From contig CP030158.1 in assembly GCA_003285105.1 (NCBI GenBank), forward strand, positions 2,146,501 through 2,210,500: DNA of 64,000 nt, in the 5' to 3' direction. The number at the start of each line of letters is the position of its first letter. Position 1 is the first letter of the stretch. The notes under the pieces were generated by a model, which searched no databases, was not told the origin of the DNA, and saw nothing but the letters and a program-made list of their open reading frames with translations. Both the position numbers and the translations under genes were made by a program. Source of the DNA: Roseithermus sacchariphilus (GTDB lineage: Bacteria; Bacteroidota; Rhodothermia; Rhodothermales; MEBIC09517). Shown piece by piece: positions 4,432 to 50,486 of the stretch.

Positions 4432-4480
4432 ATCTATGTGTCAATACCTGAACATATGTGCCGGGGTGATTTTTCACGTC

Positions 4481-4546
4481 GTCAGCCGTCAGCCTTCAGT
4501 ACAGCTAGCTGAAAGCTGATCGCTGAAAGCTGATCGCTGAAAGCTG
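4481..4546. repeat. Degenerate heptanucleotide tandem array between umuDC and the pyrophosphatase-like gene
   Basis: About nine units with a 7-nt period: GTCAGCC repeated, then alternating CTGAAAG and CTGATCG. The array ends about 5 nt before the stop codon of the minus-strand gene at 4551. Its period matches the arrays at 8674, 11131, 21778, 49850 and 50410. Confidence 0.8.
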
Positions 4547-8673: not shown

Positions 8674-8753
8674 GCTGCTCGTTGCTCGCCGCGTTCACGC
8701 TCACCCACTCGACCCTCGCCACTCGACACTCATCACTCGAAACTCGACACTCC
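8674..8753. repeat. Degenerate heptanucleotide tandem array between the POT gene and dut
   Basis: About eleven 7-nt units, clearest as TCGACCC, TCGCCAC, TCGACAC, TCATCAC, TCGAAAC, TCGACAC. The array fills the intergenic space and ends 3 nt before the dut start codon. Confidence 0.85.
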
Positions 8754-11130: not shown

Positions 11131-11151
11131 CACACCCTCACACCTCGACAC

Positions 11152-11158
<7 letters not shown>
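11131..11158. repeat. Short heptanucleotide array overlapping the copB stop codon
   Basis: Four 7-nt units (CACACCC, TCACACC, TCGACAC, TCAACCC). The TCA at 11152-11154 inside the last unit is the complement of the TGA stop codon of the P-type ATPase gene. Confidence 0.65.
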
Positions 11159-21777: not shown

Positions 21778-21896
21778 GTGGGCTGCTGGCCGCTGGCTGC
21801 TGGCCGCTGGCCTGCTGACGGACGGCTCACAGCTAACAGCCCACATCTCGCAGCCAGAAGCTAACAGCCCACAGCTAACAGCCCACAGCTAACAGC
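21778..21896. repeat. Seventeen-unit degenerate heptanucleotide array between copZ and csoR
   Basis: The spacer reads as seventeen consecutive 7-mers in one phase, from GTGGGCT, GCTGGCC and GCTGGCT to alternating TAACAGC and CCACAGC. It starts right after the copZ stop codon and ends one base before the csoR start. The units resemble, on the opposite strand, the GTGGGCT/TTCTGGC units of the arrays at 49850 and 50410. Confidence 0.92.
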
Positions 21897-48759: not shown

Positions 48760-49854
48760 ATGAAACGACCGCGTCGGATTTCCCGGGCCGTGCAGGTGGG
48801 CCCCGTACAGGTGGGCGGCGGCGCCCCGATCTCGGTGCAATCGATGACTGTATCGAAGACGCACGACGTGGCGGCGACGCTGGCCGAGGTCGCGCGGCTG
48901 GCCGAGGCCGGCGCGGACATCGTGCGGGTGGCGGTGCCGCGCCCCGAGGACGCCGAGGCCCTGCGGGACGTCGTGCAGGGCAGCCCCGTGCCCATCGTGG
49001 CCGACATCCACTTCAACTACCAGTATGCCCTCAAGGCCATCGAGGCCGGGGTGGCCAAGGTGCGCATCAACCCGGGCAACATCGGCAAGGAGGAGTGGGA
49101 GCGTGAGGTGCTGCTGGCGGCGAAGGAGGCTGGTATTCCCATCCGCATCGGCGTCAACGCCGGGTCGCTGGAGAAGGACATCCTGGACAAGTACGGCTAC
49201 CCGCAGCCGGAGGCGCTCTTCGAGAGCGCGATGCGCCACGTCGAGATCTGCACGAAGCACGGCTTCGAGGACATCGTCATCTCGGTCAAGCACTCCGACG
49301 TCTTCTTCATGATTCAGGCCTACCGGCTCGTGGCGGAGCGGACCGACTATCCGCTGCACCTGGGCGTGACCGAGTCGGGCACGCTGCAGGCCGGGTCGAT
49401 CAAGAGCGCCATCGGCATCGGCGCCCTGCTGGCCGACGGCATCGGGGACACGATCCGCGTGTCGCTGGCGACGGACTCCGTGCACGAGGTCGAAGTCGGG
49501 CATCAGATCCTCAAGTCGCTGCGGTTGGGGCGGCCCGGGGTCAACATCATCGCGTGCCCGACGTGCGGCCGTCTGGCCGGGGATCTGTTCTCCATCGTCG
49601 ACGAAGTGGAGGCGGCCGTCAAGGCCCGCAAGTTCACCAAGGACCTCAACGTGGCGCTGATGGGCTGTGCCGTCAACGGGCCGGGGGAGGCCGCCGGTGC
49701 CGATCTGGGCATTTCTCTGGGACGCGGGCGGGCCCACCTCTTCAAACGTGGCGAGATCATCCGCACCGTGCCGGAGGAGGAGATCGTGGAGGCCGTCCTG
49801 GAGGCCATCGAGGCCTGGGAGGAAGACGAGACGACGGCCGAGGCCACCGGCTGA
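48760..49854 (+). CDS. ispG: 4-hydroxy-3-methylbut-2-en-1-yl diphosphate synthase (flavodoxin)
   Basis: A 364-residue iron-sulfur enzyme of the MEP pathway that converts MEcPP to HMBPP. The TIM-barrel part has ISVQSMTVSKTHDV, VPIVADIHFNYQYAL and KVRINPGNIG. The 4Fe-4S ligands are Cys266 and Cys269 (IIACPTCGR) and Cys303 (LMGCAVNGPGEA), with Glu310 beside it. The length is that of the short bacterial type without the large insert. Its TGA stop codon lies within the first unit of a heptad repeat array. The 177-nt upstream spacer after the EEP gene holds a few GC-rich hairpins but no clear terminator. Confidence 0.96.
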   Translation: MKRPRRISRAVQVGPVQVGGGAPISVQSMTVSKTHDVAATLAEVARLAEAGADIVRVAVPRPEDAEALRDVVQGSPVPIVADIHFNYQYALKAIEAGVAKVRINPGNIGKEEWEREVLLAAKEAGIPIRIGVNAGSLEKDILDKYGYPQPEALFESAMRHVEICTKHGFEDIVISVKHSDVFFMIQAYRLVAERTDYPLHLGVTESGTLQAGSIKSAIGIGALLADGIGDTIRVSLATDSVHEVEVGHQILKSLRLGRPGVNIIACPTCGRLAGDLFSIVDEVEAAVKARKFTKDLNVALMGCAVNGPGEAAGADLGISLGRGRAHLFKRGEIIRTVPEEEIVEAVLEAIEAWEEDETTAEATG

Positions 49855-49933
49855 AAGCTGTGGGCTTCTGGCTGTGGGCTGCGGGCTACGGGCTTCTGGC
49901 TGCGGTGCGGGCTGACCGCTGAAAGCTGCAGGC
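49850..49933. repeat. Heptanucleotide array overlapping the ispG stop codon
   Basis: Twelve consecutive 7-mers (GCTGAAA, GCTGTGG, GCTTCTG, GCTGTGG, GCTGCGG, GCTACGG and so on, to TGCAGGC). The ispG stop TGA (49852-49854) is inside the first unit. The 40 nt at 49883-49922 recur exactly at 50410-50449, on the other side of the 165-bp array. Confidence 0.92.
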
Positions 49934-49935
49934 AT

Positions 49936-50405
49936 CGTGCTGGAACGAGTTCTTCCCCCTGGCCGCAGGCCTTACAGGGGGAAGTCCCCGCAGGGGGAAG
50001 GGGGTCCACATTCGTCGCTGTGCCGCCATCGTCCGGGGGCTACCCCTCCGTCGCTGCGCGACACCTCCCCTTCGCAAGGGGAGGATTTGGATGGCGCCCT
50101 CGTGCTGGAACGAGTTCTTCCCCCTGGCCGCAGGCCTTACAGGGGAAAGTCCCCGCAGGGGGAAGGGGGTCAACATCCGCCGCTGTGCCGCCATCGTCCG
50201 GGGGCTACCCCTCCGTCGCTGCGCGACACCTCCCCTTCGCAAGGGGAGGATTTGGATGGCGCCCTCGGATCGGGCCACGCCCTTCCCCCTGGCCGCAGGC
50301 CTTACAGGGGGAAGTCCCCGCAGGGGGAAGGGGGTCCACATTCGTCGCTGTGCCGCCATCGTCCGGGGGCTACCCCTCCGTCGCTGCGCGACACCTCCCC
50401 TTCGC
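49936..50405. repeat. Three-copy 165-bp tandem repeat with strong palindromes
   Basis: Copies start at 49936, 50101 and 50266, with an exact 165-nt period. Copies 1 and 2 differ at four positions. Copy 3 differs in its first 17 nt, then equals copy 1 until it stops inside the second palindrome near 50405. Each unit holds TTCCCCCTG (49953) that can pair with either of two CAGGGGGAA arms (49975, 49991), and a 21-nt palindrome CCTCCCCTTCGCAAGGGGAGG (50064-50084, 50229-50249). No frame is interrupted by stops because 165 is a multiple of three, but the translation is Arg/Pro-rich and not protein-like. This explains most of the 734-nt gap between ispG and ggt. Confidence 0.95.
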
Positions 50406-50409
50406 ATGA

Positions 50410-50486
50410 GGGCTACGGGCTTCTGGCTGCGGTGCGGGCTGACCGCTGACGGCTGAACGCTGACCGCTGAAAGCTGCGGGCTCCGG
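50410..50486. repeat. Heptanucleotide array after the 165-bp repeats
   Basis: Eleven 7-mers (GGGCTAC, GGGCTTC, TGGCTGC, GGTGCGG, GCTGACC, GCTGACG, GCTGAAC, GCTGACC, GCTGAAA, GCTGCGG, GCTCCGG). The first 40 nt equal 49883-49922 exactly. A TACCTTC promoter-like element for ggt follows at 50513. Confidence 0.9.

Follow-up and report, generated by a model that had tools for sequence, protein, structure and literature searches.

The spacer between copZ and csoR in Roseithermus sacchariphilus is filled by a degenerate tandem array of seven-nucleotide units, which raises the question of what such arrays are, how they come to lie at gene junctions and whether they serve the genes beside them. The array was analysed as part of a window of 64,000 nucleotides (bases 2146501-2210500 of the single 4.81-Mb contig CP030158.1). 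It occupies window positions 21781-21896 (116 bp, about 16.6 units, no strand assigned), starting 3 bases past the copZ stop codon and ending 1 base ahead of the csoR ATG, and the flanking products are an HMA-domain protein and a CsoR-family repressor. The explanation favoured here, with about even confidence, is that this array and many others like it form the heptad arms of an intergenic repeat, dispersed and dyad-symmetric, that would have been copied, then resized by slippage, and that is mostly tolerated rather than gene-regulatory.

An initial annotation of the window had proposed six strict 7-nt arrays at gene junctions. The period-7 self-agreement of each proposed stretch was scored, with 1000 shuffles of that stretch that preserve its dinucleotides as the comparison. 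Five of the arrays stand: the stretches at 4481-4546, 8674-8753, 21778-21896, 49850-49933 and 50410-50486 have scores of 17, 20, 37, 23 and 26, respectively, none of which is reached by any of the 1000 shuffles, and tandem-repeat detection on the window with Tandem Repeats Finder (TRF) agrees with these arrays. The sixth, at 11131-11158 (no strand assigned), has a score of 4 that is matched by 372 of 1000 shuffles and a period-7 identity of 0.48, and is consequently not an array. The copZ-csoR array does fill its spacer as proposed, but its description as seventeen units in one phase is only approximate; as read from the sequence, left-hand GGC/GCT words (GGCTGCT, GGCCGCT) give way to right-hand AGCC/AGCT words (AGCTAAC, AGCCCAC), and the GCT core moves one base within the frame.

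The same periodicity is found throughout the surveyed part of the genome. The survey covered bases 1-2,400,000 (2.4 Mb, half of the contig), with genes called by our own simple hexamer-score caller (1852 genes, 88% coding). Segments of period 7 at a score of at least 18 number 136 between genes and 3 in coding sequence, compared with just 0-3 intergenic segments for each of the periods 4, 5, 6, 8, 9 and 10; only the periods 14 and 21, multiples of seven, are comparable in count. On both counts, period and intergenic position, the arrays fall within the general class of intergenic tandem heptamer repeats. Enrichment over shuffled intergenic sequence had been set beforehand as the test on which the initial annotation would depend, and the first 1.2 Mb contain 54 intergenic arrays at a score of at least 20 compared with 0 in shuffled intergenic DNA, in which no segment reaches even 16. 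Both this enrichment and the strict period at gene junctions of many loci are thus confirmed.

Heptads are present in 114 of the 1471 spacers (about 8% of gene junctions), and the share is 7.2% for tandem, 9.1% for convergent and 8.9% for divergent spacers. Arrays within 10 bp of a stop codon number 58, compared with 39.2 ± 2.5 for random placement in the same spacers, while those within 10 bp of a start codon number 32 compared with 27.8 ± 3.0, which is no clear excess. As all spacer classes are populated and the arrays are packed against stops, their placement fits DNA that is tolerated wherever 5' regions are left unharmed, rather than terminators or promoters.

Once phased on GCT, 105 of the 136 arrays belong to one family, GCTNNNN, in which the first three columns are G (97%), C (98%) and T (92%) and variation is limited to columns 4-7. 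These columns draw on a limited vocabulary (GCTGACG, GCTGCTG, GCTGACC, GCTGTGG, GCTTCTG, GCTGCGG, GCTGAAA, GCTGATC and others), most units lack GGG runs, and column heterogeneity is significant at p < 0.01 in 73 of 116 arrays. Consequently, the earlier view that the arrays share no single motif has to be given up. The motif classes that had been distinguished are indeed related families, but fewer than claimed: TAACAGC-like units are GCTGAAA-like units of the GCT family on the opposite strand, and TCGACAC-like units correspond to a smaller second family, CGANNG/GAATG, that accounts for many of the remaining arrays. That the GCT-family arrays have one core in common argues that they come from one source and not from slippage that began separately at each locus. 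The variable columns agree better between units two apart (0.71) than between units one apart (0.61), which points to 14 nt as the probable usual step of duplication.

The arrays also follow a polar arrangement. Runs of TCAGC and GCTGA co-occur in 21 spacers, with TCAGC on the left in all of them (21:0). At least two groups among these two-armed spacers are evident copies, one sharing the C3 core (CGACGAGCACCRYCGTGTCAGGCC) and the other a common CGAAAACTACTGACCGC; with each copy group counted once, the polarity is about 12:0 (p = 0.0005). Single arms are more frequent (33 and 39, giving 72 one-armed compared with 21 two-armed junctions), and left-type arms lie closer to the left gene by 25:7 and right-type arms closer to the right gene by 24:13. 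The words within the arms are layered: read from the left, TCAGC words of the outer layer come before AGC words of the inner one (32:3), and GCT words of the inner layer come before GCTGA words of the outer one (30:1). The second family is likewise polar (5:0).

Two further sequences are associated with the arms. A GC-rich palindromic module of 165 bp is found in 30 spacers of the surveyed 2.4 Mb, 26 of which contain heptads, compared with 114 of 1471 spacers overall (Fisher p = 2e-26), and the heptads abutting it have the GCT orientation on the module strand in 31 cases and the opposite orientation in 2. At 7 of its 8 intergenic sites, the C3 core lies no more than 150 bp from heptads, and at 5 sites the heptads are found to both sides of it. 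The GC-rich module also occurs in two relatives that lack GCT heptad runs, G010 (29 matches) and G022 (19 matches), both from one other family of the same order, indicating that module and heptads are separable.

These observations bear on plain slippage, in which long simple repeats would arise separately in each spacer, with replication slipping most readily by seven. Heptamers are over-represented widely in bacteria and a slippage proposal is discussed in PMC4679880 and PMC4692102, and the higher-order 14-nt and 21-nt units show that expansion occurs here. Separate origins would, however, yield unrelated heptads, yet most arrays have GCT, and slippage predicts neither the 21:0 polarity nor the layering nor the fixed orientation of the module. 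The common core, the syntax and the module fusion together speak against slippage having acted separately at every junction, and this account is considered unlikely.

Comparison with other genomes gives an uneven picture. Runs of six GCT units were found in 16 of 60 genomes of the same order, with at most 30 matches each compared with 1207 here, in a scan whose reverse-pattern control is not a true null because TCG heptads form a family of their own. In four genomes of the order (G007, G019, G046 and G009), many TCG-cored heptads stand in place of GCT-cored ones, and the dominant word family thus varies among related genomes. Matches to CsoR were obtained in 14 of the 60 genomes (one with two matches; several weak), and none of the 14 loci retrieved from relatives has an array. 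In the four relatives with copZ adjoining csoR, the spacers are 30-78 bp long and array-free, so the orthologous-spacer comparison suggested in the initial annotation came out as anticipated for this locus.

In a sample of the phylum, four consecutive GCTGANN units were found in 42 of 297 genomes and 17 of 140 genera, and the preferred words differ between genera (e.g., GCTGAGT, GCTGATA). Among the matches listed for public genomes, which indicate breadth and not frequency, GCT heptads occur in Acidobacteria, Chloroflexi, Planctomycetota, Bacteroidota, Proteobacteria and others. Among the positions listed for five of these genomes, at least 26 pairs of opposed arms are no more than about 250 bp apart, and in every pair the TCAGC arm comes first (G066, 8; G072, 8; G068, 7; G078, 2; G073, 1), although these genomes were picked for GCT heptads and the tally does not estimate how general the arrangement is. 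Pairs of TTAGC/GCTAA and TAAGC/GCTTA have the same sense as TCAGC/GCTGA. The exception is a planctomycete locus (L145, genome G070) in which GCTGA comes first.

Conservation of an oriented core might also reflect binding, by analogy with the Omega protein and the 7-bp parS units of plasmid pSM19035, in which case the arrays could act in chromosome organisation or transcription. Like the arrays, these parS sites are built of 7-bp units that are non-palindromic, follow one another without spacing, share a conserved core and form both direct and inverted runs, and such runs are bound in this manner (PMC9499535). The core here is conserved while the other columns vary, also in those arrays that have no partner arm, and a core-reading protein is possible. 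In contrast to the six plasmid sites of 7-10 units, however, there are hundreds of chromosomal arrays and no cognate protein was found; a search for the Omega family (PF07764) gave 0 matches in 21 genomes but is uninformative, as the control genomes also gave 0. Array lengths and positions differ widely across the genome survey, independently of gene orientation, and genomes of the same order are mostly without arrays. A binding function therefore appears improbable.

The opposed arms could alternatively act as the stems of RNA hairpins that end transcription or shield mRNA ends. Consistent with this, the arrays are packed against stop codons and the two-armed elements mostly fold better than composition-shuffled versions, although the mononucleotide shuffle is a weak control. 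The complementarity at variable positions of opposed arms is 48, compared with 45.3 when permuted, and 48 of 500 permutations reach the observed value; the GCT core, moreover, is equally conserved in arrays lacking a partner arm. Both results argue that selection does not act on base pairing. Measured against terminal inverted repeats of the miniature inverted-repeat transposable element (MITE) type, the arms are inverted repeats at the level of the core only, as their variable positions mismatch. The lack of covariation and the indifference to gene orientation argue against a hairpin function, and most junctions have one arm, T-runs follow only a few right arms, and divergent spacers are occupied as often as convergent ones, which also disfavours intrinsic terminators. 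Selection for RNA hairpins is considered very unlikely.

A further scheme, which is highly improbable, is that a template-bearing or slipping polymerase would add TCAGC-type heptads to both 3' ends at a chromosome break before these ends are joined. This end extension predicts polarity, layered words, independent and unmatched arms and captured filler modules, all of which are observed. However, the complete genome contains no Ku, making canonical end joining unlikely and Ku-dependent joining disfavoured, there is no candidate enzyme, and the reversed polarity at L145 runs counter to the scheme. Mobilisation of the RAYT/REP type is disfavoured by the 0 matches to PF01797 (Y1) in the 99.98% complete genome (16 of 60 relatives are positive), replication strand bias by the mixture of GCT and AGC orientations on either side of the GC-skew turn, and insulation by the stop codon TGA in each GCTGANN unit by the lack of relation between arm orientation and gene orientation.

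The favoured explanation is therefore that of a dispersed two-armed repeat. A full copy would read (NNTCAGC)n, inner AGCC/GGCT words, an optional core, inner words and (GCTGANN)m, where either C3 or the GC-rich module of 165 bp would serve as the optional core; single arms are commoner than full copies. Short segments consisting of an arm, or an arm plus core, may have been copied into new junctions, after which arms would lengthen or shorten by slippage or unequal exchange in 7-nt and especially 14-nt steps. Resizing in such steps would keep the core aligned while leaving other positions free to differ. The elements would then persist because they are tolerated between genes and not because they regulate particular genes. 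The earlier proposal of spread by copying followed by divergence is supported only in part: there are composite copies with the GC-rich module and the C3 core, but few locus pairs have long word strings in common, and divergence is limited to four of the seven columns.

Several points weigh against this explanation. Locus pairs with long common word strings, or otherwise evident copies, are few, although strings of k = 7 are common to 2 locus pairs compared with 0.1 in shuffles. No mobilising enzyme was found, the genome having no Y1/RAYT transposase, and neutral slippage alone fails to explain why the same three columns are fixed everywhere. Genomes G010 and G022 contain no run of six GCT heptads despite carrying the GC-rich module. 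Finally, the relatives compared belong to other families of the same order, none of them close enough for gain, loss or target-site duplication to be followed. A wider reading, which we regard as unlikely, is that widespread intergenic heptamers are at least partly the arms of a polar two-armed element that dedicated sequence-specific machinery would produce or mobilise and that would occur with similar GCTNA/TNAGC cores in several phyla; candidates for such machinery would be a transposase that reads iterated heptad ends or an enzyme that extends DNA 3' ends.

Degenerate 7-nt tandem arrays outside genes recall the short tandemly repeated repetitive (STRR) sequences of cyanobacteria, with the motifs CCCCART, TTGGTCA and CAACAGT. 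The likeness, noted in the initial annotation, holds for the period but not for the motif, as none of these three occurs among the array units listed here. The two-armed elements and the GC-rich module are, as in REP/BIME and REPIN, dispersed palindromic intergenic units and mosaics in many copies with a fixed relative orientation of parts, but here the arms are heptad arrays and there is no Y1/RAYT transposase.

In the SPADE survey (PMC6344855), tandem heptamers are reported to outnumber all other periodic repeats of intergenic regions across many different prokaryotes, with no clear clue to their function. Repeats of TAACTGA are known from Beggiatoaceae, Cyanobacteria and some Bacteroidetes (PMC4679880); these are likewise intergenic direct heptamer repeats with a sporadic distribution over lineages, whereas the arrays described here have degenerate units, extend up to 448 bp and are packed at stops rather than starts, and no exact TAACTGA unit occurs among those listed. 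Repeats of GGGAATC and GGGGA(C/T)T in Xanthomonas and Nostoc (PMC4692102) share degenerate, partly conserved intergenic heptads of variable unit number, some in inverted repeats, but have G-quadruplex-forming G runs, whereas the GCT family mostly lacks GGG. Heptamers of GGGACCG are known from Geobacter (PMC2700814). Consequently, the claim that such arrays were undescribed in this lineage was overstated. The period, intergenic location, wide occurrence and unexplained function agree with the accessible passages of PMC6344855 and PMC4692102, in which the polar two-armed layout, layered words and module fusion are not described; no description of this arrangement was found in the openly licensed literature searched, and the polar grammar appears to be new. 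A fixed core with the rest free, opposed arms of constant polarity, layering and module fusion give unexplained heptamers a testable structure. This structure speaks against both plain slippage and a simple role as hairpins, and it suggests a mechanism of dispersal for which one could search.

The other arrays of the window are as follows. The core of the 4481-4546 stretch is a GCTGAAA/GCTGATC array at 4507-4546 (plus strand), best described by the 14-nt unit GCTGAAAGCTGATC. This array lies between two convergent genes, 4 bases away from the stop of the right-hand one; a short CGTCAGC run at 4480-4499 forms its opposed left arm, and the spacer (genome position 2150951) is counted among the TCAGC>GCTGA two-armed elements. 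A CACTCGA-type array of the second family (CGANNG/CNNTCG) at 8708-8752 (no strand assigned), the core of 8674-8753, stops 4 bases short of the start of a dUTPase-family gene (by Pfam). The GCT-type array at 49850-49933 (plus strand) starts within the stop codon region of the upstream gene, and is followed by the GC-rich module at 49935-50406 (plus strand; 2.9 tandem copies of the 165-bp unit) and, on its far side, by the GCT-type array at 50410-50486 (plus strand), whose final words are outer GCTGANN. An exact 40-bp direct repeat of heptad sequence flanks the module at 49883-49922 and 50410-50449. A search of a plasmid collection with the module gave no match, nor did an Rfam search of the window.

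The genome copy figure for the GC-rich module is about 29. In one locus of G010 (L336, about 1370-1850), the module is enclosed by a different inverted repeat, AACTGATGTTAC...GTAACATCAGTT, that resembles a small mobile element. Very long arrays, reaching 448 bp and built of higher-order units of 14 and 21 nt, are found at about 832244-832691 and 877876-878284 of the genome (L072 and L074). A few intergenic arrays that are not heptads but have period 13, long and near-perfect, lie near 1028712 and 1465407 (TTCCCGTGCCGGG-like and TCCGTACCCCGAA-like), and within the window an in-frame 66-bp tandem duplication with a 21-nt substructure is present at 1064-1192, inside a predicted gene.
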